Notes: generated by a model from the sequence alone, not told the origin. A stretch of 64,000 bases of DNA from Collimonas sp. OK242 (GCF_900107095.1 NZ_FNOR01000013.1:62001-126000); one strand, 5' to 3'; shown: positions 15,436-31,441, counted from the first letter of the stretch. Made by a program: numbers and translations.

Positions 15436-16683
15436 TTATTTGTTTGCGGATTCAGCCTGCTGCTTGATATACGCGGCGTCAGTCAGCGTTTGCAGAAAAG
15501 CCACCAGATCATCCACATCGCTATCGCTTAGTGCAGGCTTGCTGCCTTCACGCCGGTTGTATGGCACCGAATTGATGTTGACGTTTTCCCGATAGGCAGG
15601 CGGCACGTCATCGAATTTAACGCCGTTTTTATACCAGTCGCCCGGTTTGGTCGCGCGTGTTGCATAAAACGCGACGGCGTCGCGCAGCTCGCTAAATACG
15701 CCGTTATGCATGTAACTTTCGCGTACGGCGACATTGCGCAGGCTAGGGGTTTTGAAATAGCCGCACCATTGGCTGCTGTCGGGCCATTGCAATTGGGCTG
15801 CGGTTTTGCATAAGCCGACATCATAGAATTCGGGATTGCGATTTTCTGCAATCCTGCGGTTACGCGGCACCGCTACCGCATCGTAGCCAAAATCGGTGAA
15901 CATCGAACGCGCCGGATTGCCGGAGCTGTCATTGAATTTATGACAGGATGCGCAGTTGCCTTTATCCGGGTCCTTGAACAAACGCAGGCCGCGCATTTCT
16001 GCCGCGCTCAATTTAAGGCACCCGCGGATATAGTCGTCGTATCTGGAGCTGAACGGCGTCATTTCGTCACTGCGTAAAAAGGCTTGCAACGCGCGGCTGG
16101 CGGCCTGGGTCGCTGGTGCCGGCCGCTGAAATATGGCAGCGCCGAACTGGGTTCGCATCTCGGGCGCATACGCTTGTTGCAGCTTGCGCGCCAGTTGGCT
16201 GGGGTTGCGGTTATTCATTTCCAGAGGATTAAACAAAGGACCCAGAACCTGCTCTGCCAAGGTATTGGCGCGGCCATCCCAAAAGAAGCCGCCGAACGGA
16301 ATCGGCGCCAGCGCATCGTCATCCCGATAGAAAAAACGCGGCGGCGTATAGCGCAGATACAAAACCGAGGGCGTGTTGCGCGTACCCAGGCTGGTCGGAC
16401 GGCTACCTAGCGCGACACCGGTCCGTGACCCGTGATTGCCGGAAAAAGCCTGTGCCGGAGCGTGGCAACTGGCGCAACTGGTGCCGCGCGGTTCCGACAG
16501 CCGGGTATCGAAAAACAATTGCCGGCCGAGCGCCACAAGTCCCGGAGGATCTGCGGGCGCCGCTGCCGGCGCCGGCATTTCCGGATAGAGCGGCGTGTTC
16601 ACTGGCGCGGCATGCAGCGTGAACGGCGCCAGGCCGGCCAGCAGCACGTTGGCTAACAGCAGGGCCTGCCGCAGACTACGCAT
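15436..16683 (-). CDS. Exported di-haem cytochrome c peroxidase/MauG-family protein
   Basis: This 415-residue periplasmic protein has a signal peptide to about residue 25. Two c-type haem sites are present: CASCH at residues 70-74 and a second CASCH in the middle (GNCASCHKFND). The first half keeps LGRQLFFDTRLS, the mark of bacterial di-haem peroxidases, and the second has the typical KTPSLRNVAVRESYMHNGVF segment. Members reduce hydrogen peroxide or oxidise other substrates, as MauG does. Its ATG overlaps the stop of the upstream phosphoesterase by one base, so the two are cotranslated. The pairing suggests a joint function that I cannot name. Confidence 0.87.
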   Translation of the reverse strand: MRSLRQALLLANVLLAGLAPFTLHAAPVNTPLYPEMPAPAAAPADPPGLVALGRQLFFDTRLSEPRGTSCASCHAPAQAFSGNHGSRTGVALGSRPTSLGTRNTPSVLYLRYTPPRFFYRDDDALAPIPFGGFFWDGRANTLAEQVLGPLFNPLEMNNRNPSQLARKLQQAYAPEMRTQFGAAIFQRPAPATQAASRALQAFLRSDEMTPFSSRYDDYIRGCLKLSAAEMRGLRLFKDPDKGNCASCHKFNDSSGNPARSMFTDFGYDAVAVPRNRRIAENRNPEFYDVGLCKTAAQLQWPDSSQWCGYFKTPSLRNVAVRESYMHNGVFSELRDAVAFYATRATKPGDWYKNGVKFDDVPPAYRENVNINSVPYNRREGSKPALSDSDVDDLVAFLQTLTDAAYIKQQAESANK

Positions 16684-18110
16684 CAGTTTGGCGCCAGATA
16701 GCCACTCTTATCGCAACTGATGTTGTTGCCGTTTTGCAGGCAGGTGGTTAGCAGCAGTCCCTTGCGCGTATAGGCTTTGTATGCCCACGCGCCATTGCTT
16801 TGGCGATCCATCACCATGAAACCGAAGCTGCTCGTATGCGCAATCTTGTCGACAATGACGCCAGCAGCGGGACTGACGTTGGCTGGAAACGGATCGGCAA
16901 AATTCACGTCCAGATTATCGCCGCCGTTGCCGGAGACGAAAGTGGCGGGATGGTTGGATGAAAAATTGATGGCCTGGAAATCATGAACGTGGCCATGAAT
17001 CGCGGTCTTCACCCCGGCCGGATAGAAGGCGGTCGGATTGACGCTTTGCATCACCGATAGCAGAGCAGCGTTACCCGGCGCCGGCGCGGCGCCGGCCAAT
17101 GGCGCGAAACCCAGAATCGGATGGTGGTTGGTGAAAATGCTGTTGACGCCGGCCTTCGCCGCCAGGCGGTTGACTGTCTGGAACTGCACCTGATATTTGA
17201 TGAATTGCGGATCGCTGGTGGGCAACGCTGTCCGGCCCGCTTTCGATGAATCGAACACAATCACTTGCGTATCGAGACCGAGCGCCACCGCGTAAGGCTC
17301 GGAGAAATTCCCCAAGCCGTCATTGGCCGGATCGTCGCAAGACCGCCTGGCGTCGAACGGTTGCGTATCCAGGAAACGGAACCAGCCCTGGCCGGCGCGG
17401 GCGCATTCCTCGTGATTGCCGCGCACCATGATCCACGGCGCGGCAGCCATCAGCGGCGCAGCGGGCTTGAACAGATCTGCTTGCCATGCATCCCAGCCAT
17501 AACCCCATGGACTGTCTTTACAACCGGCGATATCTGCAGGACAGGCGTTTTCGCGATAGTGATAATCGCCTATGTGCAATACCAAATCCGGTTGCATGGC
17601 GGCGGCGGCGCTGGCGATCTCGGGGAATGGCCAGGCATCGCCATCGGCGCAGGCTTGCCAGGCGTTATCGGCTTTTTTCATGCGGCAACCGGTATCGGCC
17701 AGCACCACCACGCGCTGCGGCTCCTTCTTGGGTAAAGGCAAAGAACGAGAGCCCACTGTGACACCGCTGCTGTCGGCAGGCACGCTGTATTCACAAGCGG
17801 CGACGGGAAAGACTGAAGGCTTGGAGTCGGCGGCCGCGCTGGCGGTTGGGCGCAGCGCCGCCGTGGCCGGCGCTGCGCGCAAAGTCATCGCAACATAGTC
17901 GGCGCCGTCACGGATTTCGGGACAGCTGGCGTCGCTAGTGATGACCCTGACGATAGCCTGGTTGTTACTGCCGACAGTGACCCAGGCCGCCTTTACGCCA
18001 GCGTCAACGCTGTTGCTGTCGCTACCGCCGCAACCTGCGGCTGCCAGCCCTATGCTCATGGTTGCAGCCAATGAAAATGTGCTGCGCCACAGTTGCTTGG
18101 TCACGTCCAT
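16683..18110 (-). CDS. Lipoprotein metallophosphoesterase (calcineurin-like)
   Basis: This 475-residue protein carries a lipobox (LAAAGCGG, Cys near residue 27) and so is probably membrane-anchored in the periplasm. Residues up to about 130 resemble the spacer domain seen before such phosphoesterases. The metal-binding motifs of the calcineurin fold follow in order: ADTGCR, GDYHYR, GNHEEC, TNHHP and HGHVHDF. The domain should cleave phosphate mono- or diesters using two metals. It is first in a two-gene operon with the di-haem peroxidase and is preceded by a PhoB-like box and a well-placed -10, which fits a phosphate-scavenging role. An ATG at 18128 is a less likely start. Confidence 0.83.
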   Translation of the reverse strand: MDVTKQLWRSTFSLAATMSIGLAAAGCGGSDSNSVDAGVKAAWVTVGSNNQAIVRVITSDASCPEIRDGADYVAMTLRAAPATAALRPTASAAADSKPSVFPVAACEYSVPADSSGVTVGSRSLPLPKKEPQRVVVLADTGCRMKKADNAWQACADGDAWPFPEIASAAAAMQPDLVLHIGDYHYRENACPADIAGCKDSPWGYGWDAWQADLFKPAAPLMAAAPWIMVRGNHEECARAGQGWFRFLDTQPFDARRSCDDPANDGLGNFSEPYAVALGLDTQVIVFDSSKAGRTALPTSDPQFIKYQVQFQTVNRLAAKAGVNSIFTNHHPILGFAPLAGAAPAPGNAALLSVMQSVNPTAFYPAGVKTAIHGHVHDFQAINFSSNHPATFVSGNGGDNLDVNFADPFPANVSPAAGVIVDKIAHTSSFGFMVMDRQSNGAWAYKAYTRKGLLLTTCLQNGNNISCDKSGYLAPN

Positions 18111-18153
18111 ATAGCTCACCAGGGTCAAAGTTCATGCTGTCGAATGATCAAGA

Positions 18154-18793: not shown

Positions 18794-19363
18794 ATGACCA
18801 CTACCCCGTCCCCTGTCGAGAAATTGCGCCTCAACCTGCTGACCACCACCACCACGGTGATCGTCTACATACTGGTGTACATGACCAACGACTGGCTATT
18901 CAAGCACATCGAGTTTACCCAGGGAATTGCCTGGATCTATCTGCCGGCGGGGATACGGCTTATCTGTACTTTGCTATTTGCCGAGGCAGGCGTGCTCGGC
19001 ATCTTGATCGGCTCGCTGCTGACGTCCAGCCTCTACGCCCTCTTTCCCGGCGATCCGGTCACCACCATCGGTTACAGCGTCATCTCGGCGCTGGCGCCTT
19101 ATCTTGCCTATAGATTCACATTGCAGGAGATGCGTCTGCAGCCATCGCTGAGCAATCTGACCCCGGCCAGCCTGCTGGCCTGCATCCTGTTGTACGGGCT
19201 CGCCAATCCGCTGCTGCAGCTGGTGTGGTTTGTATTGCGCGGTATCTCCTATCATTTCTGGTCGGGCCTGATCGTGATGTCTATCGGCGACCTGAGCGGC
19301 TCTCTGATCGTGGTCTATGCGATCAAGCTCCTGCTGTCTTTCGTTCCGTTGCCGCGCCGTTAA
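18794..19363 (+). CDS. Orphan MASE1-like integral membrane protein
   Basis: This 189-residue protein is almost wholly hydrophobic, with about six membrane segments. Features such as QGIAWIYLPAGIRLICTLLF, then GILIGSLLTSSL, and the ending GDLSGSLIVVYAIKLLL resemble the MASE1 sensory membrane domain that is normally followed by a GGDEF, EAL or histidine kinase domain. No output domain follows here, so it may bind or sense something alone or partner with another protein. It lies between the regulator gene and exbD, 205 bases before the latter, and has an 11-base repeat array in its promoter. Family assignment is moderate. Confidence 0.65.
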   Translation: MTTTPSPVEKLRLNLLTTTTTVIVYILVYMTNDWLFKHIEFTQGIAWIYLPAGIRLICTLLFAEAGVLGILIGSLLTSSLYALFPGDPVTTIGYSVISALAPYLAYRFTLQEMRLQPSLSNLTPASLLACILLYGLANPLLQLVWFVLRGISYHFWSGLIVMSIGDLSGSLIVVYAIKLLLSFVPLPRR

Positions 19364-19457: not shown

Positions 19458-19568
19458 CCGATTGTAATACTGCCGAAATAATTCCTCGCTATTCTGCCGA
19501 CAGTTATAGAAATTATAGCGGTTAGCGAATTCACGCTATCACCGCGCATCTTTTATCGGGGTAGTGCA

Positions 19569-19976
19569 ATGCGTAGTTGGGACGAACCAAAGAAGCGGAA
19601 AGCCCGCGTCGAAATCATTCCCATGATCGACGTGATGATGTTCCTGCTGGTGTTTTTCGTGCTGATCAGCCTCAACGTAATTCCTGCGCTCGGCATGAAA
19701 ACGCATTTGCCGACAGCCAGCAGTTCACAGGATCTGAAGCCGCAAAACAAGGCGGTCGTCACGCTCGGTCTCAATGACGCATTGCAGGTCGACGGCGTCG
19801 ACACCAAAATCGGCGAGCTGCCGACGCGCCTGAATCAGGCCAAGAAGAACGGTGAAAAACTCAACGTCATCGTCAACAGCGATCGCGGAGTCGAGGTGCA
19901 GCGGCTGGTGGAAGTGATGGACACGCTGAAACAGAACGGTTTCGAATCGATCTCCATCGCCACCCGCATGCCGTGA
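19569..19976 (+). CDS. exbD: Biopolymer transport protein ExbD
   Basis: This 135-residue inner-membrane protein has a short basic cytoplasmic start, one membrane segment beginning IPMIDVMMFLLVFFVLIS and a periplasmic domain. The Asp in IDVM is the essential proton-path residue of ExbD/TolR. With ExbB it converts the proton gradient into movement of TonB. It is first of a set exbD-tonB-receptor-exbB-pld, an unusual order since exbB usually comes first. Its stop overlaps the tonB start (TGATG). Confidence 0.9.
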   Translation: MRSWDEPKKRKARVEIIPMIDVMMFLLVFFVLISLNVIPALGMKTHLPTASSSQDLKPQNKAVVTLGLNDALQVDGVDTKIGELPTRLNQAKKNGEKLNVIVNSDRGVEVQRLVEVMDTLKQNGFESISIATRMP

Positions 19977-20704
19977 TGCGAGCAATGACGACCATGCCGT
20001 TCTTCTACCGATTTCGCGATGCGCTGGCAACCTTGCCTTCGATACTCATACTCGCCATCCTGCTCTTTGCCGGCATCCAGAAAGCGGTGAAGATTGAAAC
20101 GCATACCGACGATACGCTGGTGCAGATCGCGTTGATGGAAGCGGAACCTCCGGCGCCGCCCGTCACCATACCCACGCCGCAGCCAAGCCCGACGCCGCCG
20201 CAAGTGGTCAAGCCGCTGCCGGTACCGCTGATGCAGCCGGTCCGGCAGCCGCAGCAACAGACAGTGAGCGCCACACCAGTCAGCAACACCCCCAGCGCAG
20301 AGATGGCAGCCGCGCCGACGCCTCCGAAAACCGTCGCGGCGCCTGCCGCGCCGCCAGCGCCAGATCCTGCGCCCCCCGTAGCCAAACCGAACAGCGCCAG
20401 TGCCGAGGCCGGCTATATCTCCAAGGTGCGAGCACATCTGAACAGCATCAAGCGCTATCCGACAGGCCGCGAGGCCAGCCTGCAACGGCCGCAAGGCAAG
20501 GTCAAGGTCTGGTTCGTGCTGAATCGCGACGGCACCCTGGCCGAACAAGGCATCGAAGAATCATCGAATTCCATGCTGCTCGACGAAGCTGCCCGCAAAA
20601 CCATCAACCGAGCCGCCTTTTCTGCGTTTCCCGAATCCAGCTGGGTTGGAGAAGCGACACATAGATTCAGCGCCGAGCTGGAATTCATCCCGGGCGCGGG
20701 GTAG
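19976..20704 (+). CDS. tonB: TonB family energy transducer
   Basis: This 242-residue protein has one N-terminal membrane anchor (LPSILILAILLFAGIQKAV), a long periplasmic spacer rich in Pro, Ala, Gln and Val from about residue 50 to 140, and a C-terminal TonB domain beginning AGYISKVRAHLNSIKRYP and containing GKVKVWFVLNRDGTL. It transfers energy to the outer-membrane receptor encoded next. The start is either ATG at 19976, overlapping the exbD stop, or GTG at 19973. A dedicated TonB next to one receptor suggests that the receptor does not rely on the general TonB. Confidence 0.88.
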   Translation: MRAMTTMPFFYRFRDALATLPSILILAILLFAGIQKAVKIETHTDDTLVQIALMEAEPPAPPVTIPTPQPSPTPPQVVKPLPVPLMQPVRQPQQQTVSATPVSNTPSAEMAAAPTPPKTVAAPAAPPAPDPAPPVAKPNSASAEAGYISKVRAHLNSIKRYPTGREASLQRPQGKVKVWFVLNRDGTLAEQGIEESSNSMLLDEAARKTINRAAFSAFPESSWVGEATHRFSAELEFIPGAG

Positions 20705-20790
20705 AGCGACAGCCGGCGGCGGTTGGAACACTCAGCTGCTTGAATACTTAGTTTTTACATTTCATAAAAAAACGTACAGGGAGTAATGCC

Positions 20791-23187
20791 ATGCAATTCA
20801 AAGTCACCCGGCTGTCACTGCTGATCTCCGGGTTATTCATCGCCGCCAGTCCATTGGTCCACGCTGCGGACACATCTGAAGTCGGCAAGGTCACCGTGCA
20901 AGGCGATGCCGGCGGCGGCCAGAGCACCGGCCTGATCCAGCCGGAAGAATCGGCGAAAGCGCGCAGTTCGGTCAATCGCGATTACATGGACAAGCAAAGC
21001 ACCACCAGCAATCCGTTCCAGATGATCAACCTGCTGCCGGGCGTGAACAGCTACGATACCGACGGCACCGGCCTGTTCGGCGGCAACATCCGGGTGCGCG
21101 GTTTCAACAGCGACCAGCTCGGCTTCACCATCAACGGCGCGCCGGTCAACGATTCCGGCAATTTCGCCGTCTATCCGCAGGAGTACACCGATGCGGAAAA
21201 CCTGTGCGACATCTTCGTCACCCAGGGTTCCACCGACACCGAAGCGCCGCACGTCGGCGCCACCGGCGGCAATATCGGCATGACCATGTGCACCCCCGAG
21301 GACCAGCGGCGTTTCCGTACCGAGTACACGTTTGGCTCGAATGACCTGTGGAAAGGCTATGTGCGTCTCGATTCCGGCAAGCTGTTCAACGACCGCTTCA
21401 AGTTCTTCGTTTCCTATTCCAAGACACAGGCAGACAAATTCAAGGGCACCGGCCGCGCCGACAAGGAACACGTCGACTTCAACAGCAAGCTCGACCTGGG
21501 CGGCGGCAGCTTTGTCGATACCGGCTTCATGTACAACTCGGCCCTGAACAACAACTATCGTTCGCTGACCAAGGCGCAGATCGCCCAGTTCGGACGCAAC
21601 CTGGATTTCGGCACGGTCGCGCCGATACACCAGCCAGGCGGCCCTGGCGCGCAAAATGATTCAAGCTACGGACCGAACGCCGGCATCAATACCGGCAATA
21701 AAAATCTGTATTACGGCTACAACCTGAATCCGTTCAAGAACTGGCTTGCCACCATGAATGCCCACTTCCAGCTGGCGCCGCAATCCAGCGTCGATGTCAG
21801 CCCTTACATGTGGTACGGCTTCGGCACCGGCGGCAATCAATTGCAGACCGTCAGCGAAGGCAATTCCGGCACCTTGCTGGGCGGCGGCGTGCGCGACGTC
21901 AACGGCGACGGCGATACCAAGGACACTGTGTTCGCTTATGAAGGCAGCCGTACCCGCACCTATCGGCCGGGTGTCACGCTCAAGTACAACCAGCAGATCG
22001 ACAACCACAAGCTGATGGTCGGCTACTGGTACGAACGCGCGCGTCATCAGCAAACCGGTCCATTTGCGCCGATCGACAACAACGGCAATTCCGCCGACGT
22101 CTGGCAAAACAATCCCGATGTCTGGCTGCGCAACCAGGACGGCTCTTTCGCGCAATACCGCGACACGCTCACCATCAGCACCGGGAAATCCGCTTTTGCG
22201 CAAGACAGCATCAGTCTGATGCAGGACAAGCTGAACCTGCAACTCGGCGCGCGTTACTCGAGCATAGACCGCAACTTCACCAACAACCCGAGCCAGAGCG
22301 CGCCTGGTTTTTACACCTTGCAGAAATCGTATTCCGACCTGCTCCCTAGCGTCGGCATCCGCTATCAGCTTGATCCGGCACAATCGGTATTTTTCAACGC
22401 AGCGAAGAACTTCAAGGCGCCGGGCAATTTCTCTTATTTCGGCTTGATCTCGGGCGGCAAATTCGTCAACGGCGTATATACCGGCGGCACCGTGCGGAAT
22501 GTGCCGGTGGATAAGGAAACCTCTTGGAACTACGATCTCGGTTACCGTTACACGACCGACAAATGGACGTTTTCCGGATCGGTCTTCTATGTCGATTACA
22601 AAAATCGCATAGCCACCTCGTTCAACCCGGATACCGGCAATCGTACCGATTACAACGTCGGCGATTCGACCTCCAAAGGCCTGGAGCTGGAATCCGGCTA
22701 CTCGCTCACCAAGAACCTGAGCGTGTACGGTTCGCTGTCCTATATCAAGAGCAAAATGGAAAAGGACATGCCATGGGCGGTCAACTTCAATCTGCCGACC
22801 GGCGGCAAGGAGTTTCCGGACACCCCGAACTGGTTAAGCGGCTTGAGCCTGCAGTACGCGCAAGATAGCTGGTATGTCTTCGGCCAAGCCAAATACACCG
22901 GCAAGCGTTACACCACGCTGGTCAACGACGACAGCCTGGGCGGCTATACGGTATTCAACGCTGGCGCCGGTTATACCTTCCCGTCTACCGCCTGGCTGAA
23001 AAAGCCGACGCTGCGCTTCAACCTCAACAATATCTTTGACAAGCAATACCTGAACCTGAATGCCGGCAGCGGCAGCCAGTTCACCAGCAATGCGGTCGCG
23101 ATCGGCAGCAGCGCGCCGGCAACCCCGCCAACCTTCTACGTCAGCGCGCCGCGTACCTTTAGCGTCACCCTGATGGCGGATTTCTAA
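20791..23187 (+). CDS. TonB-dependent outer-membrane receptor, cargo unknown
   Basis: This 798-residue protein has a 25-residue signal peptide, then a plug domain (about 30-190) with NLLPGVNSYDTDGTGLFGG, IRVRGFNSDQLGFTINGAP and VTQGSTDTEAPHVGATGG, then a 22-strand-type barrel ending in the required aromatic residue (SVTLMADF). Strong aromatic girdles such as SPYMWYGFGTGG are visible. Start ATG follows GGGAG. The receptor is encoded between its own tonB and exbB and before a phospholipase D-like gene, so these probably form one uptake unit. No siderophore genes or Fur box are seen nearby; a phosphorus-containing ligand is a guess from context. Confidence 0.9.
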   Translation: MQFKVTRLSLLISGLFIAASPLVHAADTSEVGKVTVQGDAGGGQSTGLIQPEESAKARSSVNRDYMDKQSTTSNPFQMINLLPGVNSYDTDGTGLFGGNIRVRGFNSDQLGFTINGAPVNDSGNFAVYPQEYTDAENLCDIFVTQGSTDTEAPHVGATGGNIGMTMCTPEDQRRFRTEYTFGSNDLWKGYVRLDSGKLFNDRFKFFVSYSKTQADKFKGTGRADKEHVDFNSKLDLGGGSFVDTGFMYNSALNNNYRSLTKAQIAQFGRNLDFGTVAPIHQPGGPGAQNDSSYGPNAGINTGNKNLYYGYNLNPFKNWLATMNAHFQLAPQSSVDVSPYMWYGFGTGGNQLQTVSEGNSGTLLGGGVRDVNGDGDTKDTVFAYEGSRTRTYRPGVTLKYNQQIDNHKLMVGYWYERARHQQTGPFAPIDNNGNSADVWQNNPDVWLRNQDGSFAQYRDTLTISTGKSAFAQDSISLMQDKLNLQLGARYSSIDRNFTNNPSQSAPGFYTLQKSYSDLLPSVGIRYQLDPAQSVFFNAAKNFKAPGNFSYFGLISGGKFVNGVYTGGTVRNVPVDKETSWNYDLGYRYTTDKWTFSGSVFYVDYKNRIATSFNPDTGNRTDYNVGDSTSKGLELESGYSLTKNLSVYGSLSYIKSKMEKDMPWAVNFNLPTGGKEFPDTPNWLSGLSLQYAQDSWYVFGQAKYTGKRYTTLVNDDSLGGYTVFNAGAGYTFPSTAWLKKPTLRFNLNNIFDKQYLNLNAGSGSQFTSNAVAIGSSAPATPPTFYVSAPRTFSVTLMADF

Positions 23188-23271
23188 TCCAGCTGCAGCA
23201 ATCCCTGGCGGCGGACCCTGAGCTGGATCCGCCGCTGCAACAAACGTGCATTCGTGCGCAGAGAGGTCACC

Positions 23272-23931
23272 ATGAACATGCAATTATTCCACGAGCTCGC
23301 TTTCTATCTGATGTACGCCTGTGCCGCCCTGGCGATATTCGTGATTGTCGAACGCGGACTGTTTTTCAACTACACGCTACGCCAGGCAATCGGCCTGGAA
23401 AGAGCCATGACGCACGCCGTGCAGCACGTGCAAGAACTGCCGGCCGCACTGACATCCCGTGCCAGCTTGCCGCTGACGCTGGTGTCCGACATCCTGGCGG
23501 AAAAACATCAGCTGGCCAGTGAAAAGGACCTGGAAGATTTCAGCGAATCGGTGTACATCGCCAACCGCGGCGAGGTGCAGCACCGGTTGTGGATTCTGGA
23601 CACCATCGTCACCGCCGCGCCCCTGCTCGGCCTGCTCGGTACGATTTTGGGTATCATCGATACTTTCAAGGCACTGGCGGTATCCGGCGTATCCGATCCG
23701 GGCCAGGTATCGCAAGGTATAGGCACCGCTTTGTATGCGACAGCGCTGGGTATCGGCATCGCGGTGGTCGGCATGTTTTTCTTTAATATGTTCCAGGAAC
23801 GGATCGAGCGCATCAACGATCATTTGAAAGTATTGATGCTGCGTGCCTGCGTCGGCCGGGCGGCTGGCAACGATATGCAGCGCGATATAAATGCGGCGGC
23901 GGCAGAATCCGGTAAATTGCATCTCGCCTGA
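23272..23931 (+). CDS. exbB: ExbB proton channel protein (MotA/TolQ/ExbB family)
   Basis: This 219-residue protein has three membrane segments: one at about residues 9-30, and two after a cytoplasmic loop, with TAAPLLGLLGTILGIIDTFKAL and GIGTALYATALGIGIAVVGMFFF. These are the conserved channel segments with the Thr and Pro positions of the family. It powers TonB together with ExbD. The start at 23272 has GAGAGG five bases upstream; an ATG-equivalent 18 bases earlier lacks one. The gene is separated from exbD by tonB and the receptor, an atypical order. Its stop overlaps the next possible start. Confidence 0.88.
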   Translation: MNMQLFHELAFYLMYACAALAIFVIVERGLFFNYTLRQAIGLERAMTHAVQHVQELPAALTSRASLPLTLVSDILAEKHQLASEKDLEDFSESVYIANRGEVQHRLWILDTIVTAAPLLGLLGTILGIIDTFKALAVSGVSDPGQVSQGIGTALYATALGIGIAVVGMFFFNMFQERIERINDHLKVLMLRACVGRAAGNDMQRDINAAAAESGKLHLA

Positions 23932-23942
23932 TGGGAATTGAA

Positions 23943-25160
23943 ATGCATAAGCTGATCACCACGCTGGCGATACTGCTCGGTTGCGCCGGCAGCGCCCAGG
24001 CCGAATTCAGCATTCCCGGTTATGAACTGGTGCACACCGCCCCGGTGGAAACCACCTTGGCAACGCCCGATTTGCGTGAACCGCTGCAAGTCTGGAGCGA
24101 AATGTTCGACGCCGCCAGGCAGCAAATCGTGCTGGGCCAGTTTTATGCGGCGAGCCAGCCTGGCGCGGCCTTCGAGCAGGTAATAGCACGGCTCGCCGCC
24201 GCCGGTGCGCGCGGCGTCAAGATCCGCTTCCTGATGGAAGAAAAAGGAAAATTCGCCTCCGATATGCCTACCATCGAAAGGCTCAGGCAGATTCCCAATC
24301 TGGAATTCCGCTATCTCGATTATTCCAAGCTGACCGGCAACGGCATCATCCACGCGAAATATTTGGTGGTCGATGGCAGCGCCGCCTACGTCGGCAGCCA
24401 GAATTTCGACTGGCGCTCGTTTGCCCACATCCATGAGACCGGCTTGCGCGTGACTGACGCCGCGGTCGTCAGCCAGCTGCAGAATATCTTCGAACACGAC
24501 TGGCATGCGCAGGAGCTGATCGCGCAGGGCAAGCAAGTGCCGAAACTTAACCAAAGCGTGGTTGCCGCCAACGACCGGCAAGCGACATTCCTGGTGGCCA
24601 GCCCGAACGCGTTTAACCCGCCCGGCGTCGGCGACTCGGAAACGGAATTGCCGAAACTGCTGGCGGCGGCCAAATCCGAGGTCCGGATCCAGCTGCTCGA
24701 CTATGCGCCGTTAAGCTACGGTCCGAATCGCACACGTCCTTATTACGCGGTGATTGATGATGCGATCCGTGCGGCGCTGGCGCGCGGCGTCAAGGTCAAG
24801 ATGATGGTGTCGAACTGGAATACCGAAAAGCCGGCGATCGCTTATTTGAAAAGCCTGGCGCTGCTGCCCGGCATGGAAATCAGGATCGTCACGCTGCCGC
24901 AGGCCAGCACCGGCTTCATTCCTTTCGCCCGCGTAATCCACAGCAAGACCATGGCGATCGACGGCCAGCTGGCATGGATAGGCACCAGCAACTGGAGCGG
25001 CGGCTATCTGGATAATTCGCGCAACCTGGAAATCGTGCTGCGCAATGAACAGATGGCGCAACGGATCGCGGAATTGCACCAGCAAACCTGGGATTCGGCA
25101 TATGCGCAGCCTATCGATGTGATGAAGGATTATCCCAAGCCGGTGAAAGGCCAGGAATAA
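23943..25160 (+). CDS. Exported phospholipase D-like protein
   Basis: This 405-residue protein has a signal peptide (MHKLITTLAILLGCAGSAQA) and two HKD motifs: His137, Lys139, Asp144 (IHAKYLVVDG) and His333, Lys335, Asp340 (IHSKTMAIDG), each followed by the usual Gly-x-Ser/Thr-x-Asn. Both halves of a phospholipase D active site are therefore intact. It should cleave phosphodiesters such as phospholipid head groups, or nucleic acid as in Nuc-type members, in the periplasm or outside. An ATG at 23931 overlapping exbB is possible but puts an acidic residue into the signal. It is last in the TonB cluster. Confidence 0.85.
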   Translation: MHKLITTLAILLGCAGSAQAEFSIPGYELVHTAPVETTLATPDLREPLQVWSEMFDAARQQIVLGQFYAASQPGAAFEQVIARLAAAGARGVKIRFLMEEKGKFASDMPTIERLRQIPNLEFRYLDYSKLTGNGIIHAKYLVVDGSAAYVGSQNFDWRSFAHIHETGLRVTDAAVVSQLQNIFEHDWHAQELIAQGKQVPKLNQSVVAANDRQATFLVASPNAFNPPGVGDSETELPKLLAAAKSEVRIQLLDYAPLSYGPNRTRPYYAVIDDAIRAALARGVKVKMMVSNWNTEKPAIAYLKSLALLPGMEIRIVTLPQASTGFIPFARVIHSKTMAIDGQLAWIGTSNWSGGYLDNSRNLEIVLRNEQMAQRIAELHQQTWDSAYAQPIDVMKDYPKPVKGQE

Positions 25161-29017: not shown

Positions 29018-30202
29018 TCAGCTCACCGGCGGCATGACCAGTTCATGCACCACCAGGCCGGCGTCGGAATTGCCGAAGGTGTCGGCGTTGGCCCGGATCC
29101 GCTCGCCGGCCTGCATGGCGTCGGCATAACCCTGCTCCCAACGCCATTCGATCGAGCCGCGCGAAAAATTGATGTCCTTGGATGGCATGTTCCAGTCGCG
29201 GCCGCTGTAACGCAGGCGCACGATATGAATCGTGCTGTCGTCGTTCAAGCCTTGGAACTCCTTGAGGTCGGCCTTGCTGCGCAACGCTGGCGGCAGCTTG
29301 TCATACAACGCTTTCGCAGCCCGCCGCAGTTGATACATGCGCAAATAATTTTCGATATGGCGCTCTGAACGTGAAGCAAAGGTCACGTCCTTCTGACGAT
29401 TGGTGATCTGGTCCAGCGTCACCGGCTCGGGACCGTTGGCGCTCCACAAATCCACCATGACGCATAGCGTGTTGCCATCGACATCGGCCTTGGATTCGTC
29501 GTCCAGCACAACTTCCAGCGGCGTATTCGAATACAAGCCGCCATCCCAGTACAGCTCGCCGTCTATCCGTACCGGCGCAAAACCGGGCGGCAAGGCGCCG
29601 CTGGCCATGATGTGCTCAACTCCGATCTGCCGCTCGCGGGAATCGAAGTTGACCAGGCTGCCGCACGCCACCTTCATCGCACTCACGGTCAGGCGCATGG
29701 CGCCGGGAGCGTTCAGATGCTTGAAATCGACCAGACGTGCCAGCGTTTCGGCCAGCGGGGCAGTATCGTAAAAACTGGCTTGCTCAGGCAGGACCGGCCA
29801 GCCCAGCACAAAGGGATTCGGCGAGCGCGGCGAGAAAAATCCCGGCACGCCGCGGGTGGTGACGTCAGCCGTGGTCCACCAGGTATTGAACTGGCGCGCG
29901 CCATCGGTGACTTTACTCATATCCATCAGGTCGCCATGGCCGACCTGCTCCCAGAACTCCTTCAGTCGCGATAAGCGCAGATCGCGTTCGTTACCGGCGA
30001 TGATGGCGGCGTTGATGGCGCCGATCGAGGTTCCCACCACCCAGTCCGGCGTCAGGCCGTTCTCGTGCATCGCATGATAGACCCCGGCCTGATACGCCCC
30101 CAGCGCGCCCCCGCCCTGCAGCACCAGCGCCACCCGCGGGGTGAGCGATTCGGCTTTGGTTTCAGTGCGGATGTTTGCTTTGGAGGTGGTTTTATTGCTC
30201 AT
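29018..30202 (-). CDS. Patatin-like phospholipase family protein with DUF3734 domain
   Basis: This 394-residue cytoplasmic protein has the patatin core: oxyanion loop LVLQGGGALGAYQAG, nucleophile elbow GTSIG, and the catalytic Asp in WDGGLYSNTP. The C-terminal part (about 270-394), with FASRSERHIENYLRMYQLRRAAKALYD (in fragments), matches the DUF3734 domain common in Burkholderiales. Activity would be lipid acyl hydrolysis or thioester/polyester cleavage. The start at 30202 (MSNKTTSK) is preferred over one 30 bases upstream. It is followed at once by the M15 peptidase gene. Confidence 0.85.
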   Translation of the reverse strand: MSNKTTSKANIRTETKAESLTPRVALVLQGGGALGAYQAGVYHAMHENGLTPDWVVGTSIGAINAAIIAGNERDLRLSRLKEFWEQVGHGDLMDMSKVTDGARQFNTWWTTADVTTRGVPGFFSPRSPNPFVLGWPVLPEQASFYDTAPLAETLARLVDFKHLNAPGAMRLTVSAMKVACGSLVNFDSRERQIGVEHIMASGALPPGFAPVRIDGELYWDGGLYSNTPLEVVLDDESKADVDGNTLCVMVDLWSANGPEPVTLDQITNRQKDVTFASRSERHIENYLRMYQLRRAAKALYDKLPPALRSKADLKEFQGLNDDSTIHIVRLRYSGRDWNMPSKDINFSRGSIEWRWEQGYADAMQAGERIRANADTFGNSDAGLVVHELVMPPVS

Positions 30203-30308
30203 TTGATACCCATCTTGTGTTGGGAAGAGCAACCATATTAACCGATCGCGCCAAGAGACGACGACGGCCGGGCATATGCCATCAATTTGTCATCCGGCCA
30301 TCATAAAC

Positions 30309-30327: not shown

Positions 30328-30406
30328 GTTATAGTAATCCTGCCTTAAATGTAACAATTTGTTACCGGCAATAAATCACCATTCCACCATCAAAAGAGGA
30401 GTTCCC

Positions 30407-31441
30407 ATGCTTTTGCGCTCTATCGTCGCCGGCGCCATCCTGGCCGCCAGTTCAGCCGCTGCCTTCGCGCAGGATCAAGTGTTGAACCTGTATTCCGCAC
30501 GCCACTATCAAACCGACGAAGCGCTGTATGGCAACTTCACGAAAAGCACCGGCATCAAGATCAATCGCGTCGACGGCGACGACGCCGGCACCATCGCACG
30601 CCTGAAAAGCGAAGGCGCTGCCAGTCCGGCGGATGTGATTTTGCTGGTGGATGCGGCGCGTCTGTGGCGGGCAGAAAACGACGGCCTGTTCCAGCCGGTG
30701 CAATCGGCCATCCTTGATGAACGCATCCCGCGCAACCTGCGCGGCAAGGACGACGGCAAGGGATCGCAGTGGTTTGGCTTTTCGACCCGCGCCCGCGTGA
30801 TCGTCTACAACCAGCAAAACATCCGGCCGCAAGACGTCGAGACCTACGAAGCGCTGGCCGATCCGAAGAACAAGGGCAAGCTGTGCACCCGTTCCGGTTC
30901 GCATCCTTACAATGTGTCGCTGTTCGGCTCCTTGCTGGAGCATCATGGCGAAGCCAAGACCGAAGCGCTGCTGAAGGATTACGTTGCCAACCAGGCGCGC
31001 TCGCCGGTCGGTGGCGATACCGATCAGATCAAGGCGGTCGCCTCCGGCGAATGCGGCGTGGCGATTTCGAATTCCTACTACGTTGCGCGACTGATGAAGT
31101 CGAGCAAAGCGGAAGATGTCGAAGTAATGAAAAAAGTCGGCGTGGTCTGGCCTAACCAGAACACCACCGGCGCCCATGTCAATATCGCCGGCGCCGGTGT
31201 CGCCAAGCATGCGCCGCATCGTGCAGCGGCTATCAAGTTCCTGGAGTACCTGTCCAGCGACGATGCCCAGCGTTATTTCGCCGAAGGCAATAACGAAACG
31301 CCGGCAGTCAAAGGTGTCAAGAGCGGCAACCCGGCGCTGGATGCGCTCGGCCCTTATAAAGCCGAGGTGATCGATGTCTCTGCGGTTGGCCGCAACCAGC
31401 AGAAAGTGCAGCAATTGCTGGATCGCGCCGGCTACAAATAA
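30407..31441 (+). CDS. fbpA: Ferric iron ABC transporter substrate-binding protein (FbpA/FutA type)
   Basis: This 344-residue periplasmic protein has a signal peptide ending SSAAAFAQ-DQ. It keeps VLNLYSARHYQTDEALY, typical of iron-binding FbpA/FutA with the first Tyr ligand, and SNSYYVARLM with the adjacent Tyr pair that binds ferric ion. It delivers iron to FbpB/FbpC. Start 30407 follows AAGAGGAG. The gene has its own terminator, and the ATPase and permease genes lie apart and in other orientations downstream. A Fur-like site precedes it. Confidence 0.9.
   Translation: MLLRSIVAGAILAASSAAAFAQDQVLNLYSARHYQTDEALYGNFTKSTGIKINRVDGDDAGTIARLKSEGAASPADVILLVDAARLWRAENDGLFQPVQSAILDERIPRNLRGKDDGKGSQWFGFSTRARVIVYNQQNIRPQDVETYEALADPKNKGKLCTRSGSHPYNVSLFGSLLEHHGEAKTEALLKDYVANQARSPVGGDTDQIKAVASGECGVAISNSYYVARLMKSSKAEDVEVMKKVGVVWPNQNTTGAHVNIAGAGVAKHAPHRAAAIKFLEYLSSDDAQRYFAEGNNETPAVKGVKSGNPALDALGPYKAEVIDVSAVGRNQQKVQQLLDRAGYK

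Follow-up and report, generated by a model that had tools for sequence, protein, structure and literature searches.

What does a TonB-driven receptor take up when the same operon encodes its whole energy-coupling set together with an exported enzyme of the phospholipase D (PLD) type? This question is raised by five genes, exbD, tonB, a TonB-dependent receptor gene, exbB and a PLD gene, which follow one another on the plus strand at 19569-25160 of the window, a stretch of 64,000 nucleotides from the 4.98-Mb genome of Collimonas sp. OK242 (GCF_900107095.1, NZ_FNOR01000013.1:62001-126000; positions are counted from its first letter). An original prediction from the sequence alone described a receptor unit complete with its own energy coupling and linked to an exported phosphodiesterase, a description borne out by gene content, Pfam assignments and conserved order, and guessed at a phospholipid- or nucleic-acid-derived ligand. 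Judged from kinship and gene neighbourhoods, the five genes probably form a TonB-driven unit for scavenging nucleic acid, and we are quite confident that nucleic acid is the theme of the system.

Every product of the run scores above its Pfam cut-off, and the first four make up a full TonB-dependent transport set. ExbD (19569-19976; Pfam ExbD, 104 bits, 5.5e-30) is the inner-membrane partner in the TonB motor, and TonB (19973-20704) consists of an N-terminal anchor, a proline-rich spacer and a TonB_C domain of 37.5 bits (cut-off 24.6; 3.2e-9). The outer-membrane receptor (20791-23187) carries plug and barrel (Plug and TonB_dep_Rec). For the motor subunit ExbB (23272-23931; MotA_ExbB, 90 bits, 1.6e-25) the open reading frame is listed from GTG 23254, and comparison with relatives places the conserved start at ATG 23272 (MNMQLF...). 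The fifth gene (23931-25160; conserved start probably ATG 23943) encodes an exported phosphodiesterase of PLD3/PLD4 type with two HKD motifs and two PLDc_2 stretches (3.4e-37), which begins with a signal peptide followed by EFSIPGYELV.... Pfam thus confirmed the predicted line of motor, receptor and secreted two-HKD protein on one strand. The overlapping stops and starts expected at several junctions were found at two of them: exbD and tonB overlap in TGATG, and exbB and the PLD gene either share TGATG or lie 12 nucleotides apart, depending on the PLD start. The tonB-receptor and receptor-exbB junctions are gaps of 86 and about 84 nucleotides.

If the fifth protein were a true phospholipase D, the operon would scavenge phospholipids or glycerophosphodiesters, and the receptor would import a head group or phosphate ester. 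The database name 'phospholipase' of the nearest solved protein by sequence, SpPLD from Serratia plymuthica AS9 (7e0m; 5e-161, 62% identity), favours that explanation. However, the enzyme is far nearer to nucleases, the next matches by sequence being PLD3 (1.8e-33), the vaccinia nicking-joining enzyme (3.7e-31) and PLD4 (1e-28), than to the lipid-cleaving Streptomyces PLDs, which follow at 4e-4 or weaker. By fold, its AlphaFold model (predicted local distance difference test, pLDDT, 89) matches SpPLD with a template modelling (TM) score of 0.97, PLD3/PLD4 with about 0.79 and vaccinia F13 next, and human PLD1/2 and the Streptomyces and Moritella PLDs with only about 0.55. Two HxKxxxxD motifs are each followed by GS or GT (HAKYLVVD at 141 with GS at 155; HSKTMAID at 337 with GT at 351). 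Identity to PLD3/PLD4 is 25-27%. The residues that contact single-stranded DNA in human PLD3, H201, K203, N218, D220, H416, K418 and N432 (PMC10783504), have the counterparts H141, K143, N158, D160, H337, K339 and N354, which are invariant in 14 bacterial sequences.

The accessible part of the SpPLD paper names the protein phospholipase D, contains no activity assay that we found, and describes a charged loop that would not suit acyl chains, nuclease-like loops and the absence of a lipid gate; its authors ask whether the protein hydrolyses nucleic acid (PMC8004604). A close SpPLD homologue (locus L123) sits in an exbD-tonB-receptor-exbB-PLD operon, and gene context would answer their question in favour of a nuclease. 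We rejected a lipid-cleaving PLD of Streptomyces type on the weak sequence and fold match and on the gate missing from the 62%-identical SpPLD, as far as the accessible part of that paper describes it (PMC8004604). The DISARM protein DrmC was also rejected (NCBIfam DrmC_I, 87.7 bits against a cut-off of 133). Although named PLD, the enzyme is best read from these comparisons as a nuclease of the PLD3/PLD4 branch and not as a phospholipase.

The gene order, called unusual in the original prediction for its separation of exbD from exbB, recurs in several genera and three families. The identical five-gene order is present in Collimonas, Glaciimonas and Solimicrobium (L008-L015, L017, L060; also L065) and in one further genus (L055, L062, L063, L067). 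It is also kept in all seven enzyme-bearing loci of a second family (L120, L121, L142-L146) and in six of the ten of a third (L123, L124, L147, L149, L150, L151), where a seventh locus, L148, has the receptor inverted. Since the order recurs within and beyond the host family, the split arrangement is an inherited module. The PLD enzyme itself is rare, found in 11 of 398 genomes from a phylum-wide sample and in 98 of 294 genomes of the host family; a class-wide search of about one genome per family gave no further member, which makes it patchy outside the sampled families.

A search for constant partners in relatives, which the original prediction had proposed, returned nucleotidase and purine-salvage genes. 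At least 94 of the 98 PLD genes of the host family, where nucleotidase counts are lower bounds, have a UshA-type nucleotidase gene, a receptor gene of this family or both as neighbours. In at least 70 of them the nucleotidase is the direct neighbour, encoded on the same strand at a median distance of 30 nucleotides, although most genomes contain just a single gene of this kind; the adjacency expected by chance is about 0.001 per genome. Several Collimonas and Glaciimonas genomes carry, between exbB and the PLD gene, a 576-residue lipoprotein with Metallophos and 5_nucleotid_C domains that matches solved 5'-nucleotidases. Seen from the receptor, a nucleotidase or PLD gene adjoins in at least 81 of 103 cases, and most of the others are a purine-permease paralogue or lie beyond the matches listed.

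Purine genes join in several genera, where the order is guanine deaminase, adenosine deaminase, receptor, nucleotidase, PLD and S1/P1 nuclease. Opposite this set lies a Bmp-type ATP-binding cassette (ABC) transporter comprising a binding protein, an ATPase and two permeases (L053/L105, L058, L068/L102, L103, L104, L108; partly L106, L107). NCBIfam names its subunits 'putative B6 transporter', all far under cut-off; membership of the Bmp/PnrA family suggests a nucleoside as substrate. The same locus occurs without PLD (L084, L085, L087, L088, L096-L098), and genus g32 has only receptor and nucleotidase, which makes the nucleotidase the receptor's steadier partner and PLD optional. The original prediction had regarded receptors sited without PLD and induced by iron as evidence against it: about half of the related receptors indeed have no adjacent PLD gene, most of these retain the nucleotidase, and no link to iron emerged. 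As a separate observation, the adenosine deaminase-like protein (L068:855-2291 and homologues) begins with an apparent signal peptide and may be periplasmic, which would be unusual among bacterial purine deaminases.

These neighbours bear directly on the two guessed ligands. The nucleic-acid-derived one gains strong support from what lies beside the relatives' loci in other genera: nucleotidase and S1/P1 nuclease, purine deaminases, a nucleoside-type ABC transporter and a purine permease. Phospholipid scavenging can still draw on a patatin-like gene 4 kb away (29018-30232) and on phytase-like or PF04185 phosphoesterase neighbours at a few distant loci, but the conserved neighbours are nucleotidase and purine genes, no conserved lipid gene accompanies them, head groups need no TonB receptor, and SpPLD, in the accessible part of its description, is without lipid gate or acyl-binding loop and without a reported assay (PMC8004604). 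We consider phospholipid scavenging improbable and dropped it, given the lack of lipid neighbours and the poor fit to lipid PLDs.

Several observations nevertheless weigh against a nucleic-acid scavenging unit. PLD3 Tyr411, which stacks on the 5' base and is a substrate contact rather than a catalytic residue, corresponds to Phe332 here; the position is Tyr in the relatives L112 and L125-L127. The lipid enzyme F13 of vaccinia comes almost as close in fold, a match that also speaks for phospholipid scavenging, and we found no published experiments on bacterial members of the enzyme group. In this strain the operon has neither a nucleotidase gene nor a purine gene beside it, so that the assignment rests on relatives. 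The downstream genes in gammaproteobacterial loci are phytase-like (L123, L147) or encode an M20 peptidase (L120, L142) instead of nucleotide enzymes, which leaves room for a wider organophosphate role, and the neighbour at L125 is a PF04185 phosphoesterase. The generic fold of the receptor, finally, allows no ligand to be read from it. A protein search of the host genome gave no nucleotidase of the operon type; a family search located CpdB (2',3'-cyclic-nucleotide 2'-phosphodiesterase/3'-nucleotidase) elsewhere in it, and at L065 a CpdB gene lies upstream of the same five-gene operon.

The best folds for the receptor model (pLDDT 76) are PqqU/YncD and siderophore receptors at 14-17% identity, and Pfam found no N-terminal signalling domain. 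Such folds would suit a receptor for iron or another metal whose only tie to an unrelated enzyme is the operon they share, as would the partial match to the siderophore receptor model TIGR01783, rejected at 131 bits against a cut-off of 223.5, and the gene at 30359-31441 for a solute-binding protein, which we take to resemble those of iron ABC transporters. Yet, as the original prediction had noted, siderophore genes were not seen and there is no convincing Fur box; the iron-type solute-binding neighbour was not seen outside Collimonas loci, and the frequency of nucleotidase or PLD beside the receptor also argues against iron. An iron receptor is very improbable.

The host genome holds a second exbD-tonB-receptor-exbB set (L049), whose receptor is 48-50% identical and which starts 22 nucleotides after a purine-type permease gene (Xan_ur_permease, presumably AzgA-like); a ribokinase-like kinase gene is nearby. 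In a related genus the same receptor paralogue adjoins a Bmp-type ABC transporter (L091, L092). Downstream of the L049 set lie an apparent extracytoplasmic function (ECF)-type sigma factor and a 1554-residue protein (L049:7994-8590 and L049:9292-13956). The paralogue suggests that the receptor might import scarce free purines or nucleosides, with PLD and nucleotidase feeding it or running in parallel: it follows immediately on a purine permease gene and is accompanied by neither PLD nor nucleotidase (L049, L094), and guanine and adenosine deaminases adjoin the receptor elsewhere. However, the unit in the window has no adjacent purine genes and yet retains the nuclease-like enzyme, and small purines diffuse through porins. 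We regard uptake of free purines as unlikely.

The receptor is also the part that changes. In Glaciimonas immobilis, ExbD, ExbB, nucleotidase and PLD share 70-88% identity with the reference proteins, whereas the receptor reaches only 34% (L017:4110-6446) and groups with receptors of gammaproteobacterial PLD operons (support 100/100), which we read as a case of receptor replacement. In other genera the place of the receptor is taken by an unrelated Oar-like receptor of 1147 residues (L050, L052, L054, L057, L061, L066, L128-L130, L137-L139). Those at the purine/nucleotidase/PLD loci L066 (1412-4855), L050, L052, L054, L057 and L061, which carry a CarboxypepD_reg domain, make up a second candidate family of nucleic-acid receptors. 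A receptor that changes while the enzymes stay constant is expected of a nutrient system whose ligand varies in form.

How would a nucleic-acid scavenging unit work? ExbB, ExbD and TonB would energise the dedicated receptor and bring pieces of nucleic acid into the periplasm. The cargo would most likely be oligonucleotides, since mononucleotides can use porins. PLD would trim the pieces from the 5' end into 3'-nucleotides: according to the PLD3 model, the downstream nucleotide departs with a 5'-OH, so the released one bears the 3'-phosphate. The phosphate would be stripped by 5'- or 3'-nucleotidases, operon-encoded in many relatives and represented in the host genome by CpdB, whose 3'-nucleotidase activity fits such a product, and nucleosides and phosphate would pass to inner-membrane transporters. 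Substrate, exonuclease direction, periplasmic location and receptor cargo are what we infer from the conserved company and kinship described above.

The original prediction had the enzyme cutting first and the receptor importing the product. With only a Sec signal on PLD, import followed by periplasmic cutting is the simpler order, which we favour tentatively, at somewhat below even confidence. The nucleic-acid theme could also accommodate a released PLD that digests extracellular DNA or RNA, with the receptor importing nucleotides or nucleosides. The signal peptide of the enzyme and the signal-peptide-like N-termini of the deaminase and S1/P1 neighbours fit such cutting outside. However, a Sec-type signal has the periplasm as its default destination, the cluster nucleotidases look like lipoproteins, and a TonB pump is needed mainly for larger pieces, mononucleotides passing through porins. 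Cutting outside is rather unlikely. In its most specific form, our proposal is a TonB importer dedicated to nucleic-acid oligomers, which in Proteobacteria would act together with a PLD3-type 5'-exonuclease and nucleotidases as a periplasmic counterpart of lysosomal nucleic-acid digestion; we put this forward as a tentative possibility.

Upstream of exbD, an element of about 80 nucleotides (19464-19545, plus strand; TTGTAATAC-N4-GAAATAATT...TATAGAAATTATAGC) is kept in Collimonas, Glaciimonas, Solimicrobium and the further genus, unlike the remainder of the intergenic region. It is probably the operon promoter/operator. Because the genome contains a single copy, we rejected it as a regulon motif. 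Pho and Fur box searches upstream of exbD, the receptor gene and the MASE1 gene gave no match convincingly above shuffled DNA, and an Rfam search gave none. The MASE1-like gene (18794-19363, plus strand; MASE1 below cut-off) encodes a membrane protein of 189 residues with no output domain and is kept directly upstream of the operon in L008-L015, L055, L062, L063, L065 and L067. Phosphate-themed neighbours had been cited in support of the guessed ligands; a secreted metallophosphatase-like lipoprotein is indeed encoded at 16683-18128, beside a MauG-type di-haem protein (15436-16683), but the pair is confined to some Collimonas loci. It is present in the four mapped strains without the operon nucleotidase and in one of five with it, as if the two replaced each other. 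At the distant L125 (7777-13480), a PLD homologue has a PF04185 phosphoesterase and an ECF sigma-FecR-TonB receptor set as neighbours, which we read as another PLD/receptor pairing under different control.

In the literature searched, which covered few subscription journals, we found no published equivalent of a TonB-coupled nucleic-acid system, and the module appears to be conserved and undescribed. If the proposal is true, a nucleic-acid cargo served by a motor of its own would extend the range of TonB cargoes, explain the use of DNA and RNA by soil bacteria and mean that the bacterial 'phospholipase D' group around SpPLD, a structurally solved family for which it makes a testable prediction, is misnamed. 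The bacterial enzyme would also offer a simple model of PLD3 and PLD4, which have been linked with Alzheimer's disease and lupus.

The cargoes known for TonB systems are mostly iron complexes, B12, metals, sugars and pyrroloquinoline quinone (PQQ), and to our knowledge few outer-membrane pumps serve nucleic-acid feeding. Canonical systems for iron, B12 or PQQ combine ExbB-ExbD-TonB with one receptor, and all four parts are found here; the differences are the exbD-tonB-receptor-exbB order, the nuclease-like enzyme and the nucleotidase and purine genes, not iron genes, of the relatives. The SusCD-type loci of Bacteroides for nucleosides and ribose also tie TonB-dependent uptake to nucleoside use. 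However, they belong to an unrelated lineage, they are not known to include a PLD enzyme, and neither a nucleoside hydrolase nor a SusD lipoprotein was seen here, SusD-like proteins being absent from the operon and not recognised in homology-mapped relatives, of which not every neighbour was scanned. Periplasmic salvage by UshA/CpdB shares a nucleotidase of that family, in operon or genome, but works without a TonB receptor. SpPLD is alike in sequence, fold and, through L123, operon type, whereas the accessible part of its description presents a phospholipase D with a speculated role in plant protection, and we found no genomic context there (PMC8004604). The mammalian PLD3 and PLD4, lysosomal 5'-3' exonucleases, share the fold, both HKD sites, the catalytic and phosphate-holding residues and export to a digestive compartment; the bacterial enzyme, a putative nuclease, differs in its low identity to them, in Phe332 for Tyr411 and in its place within a TonB operon.

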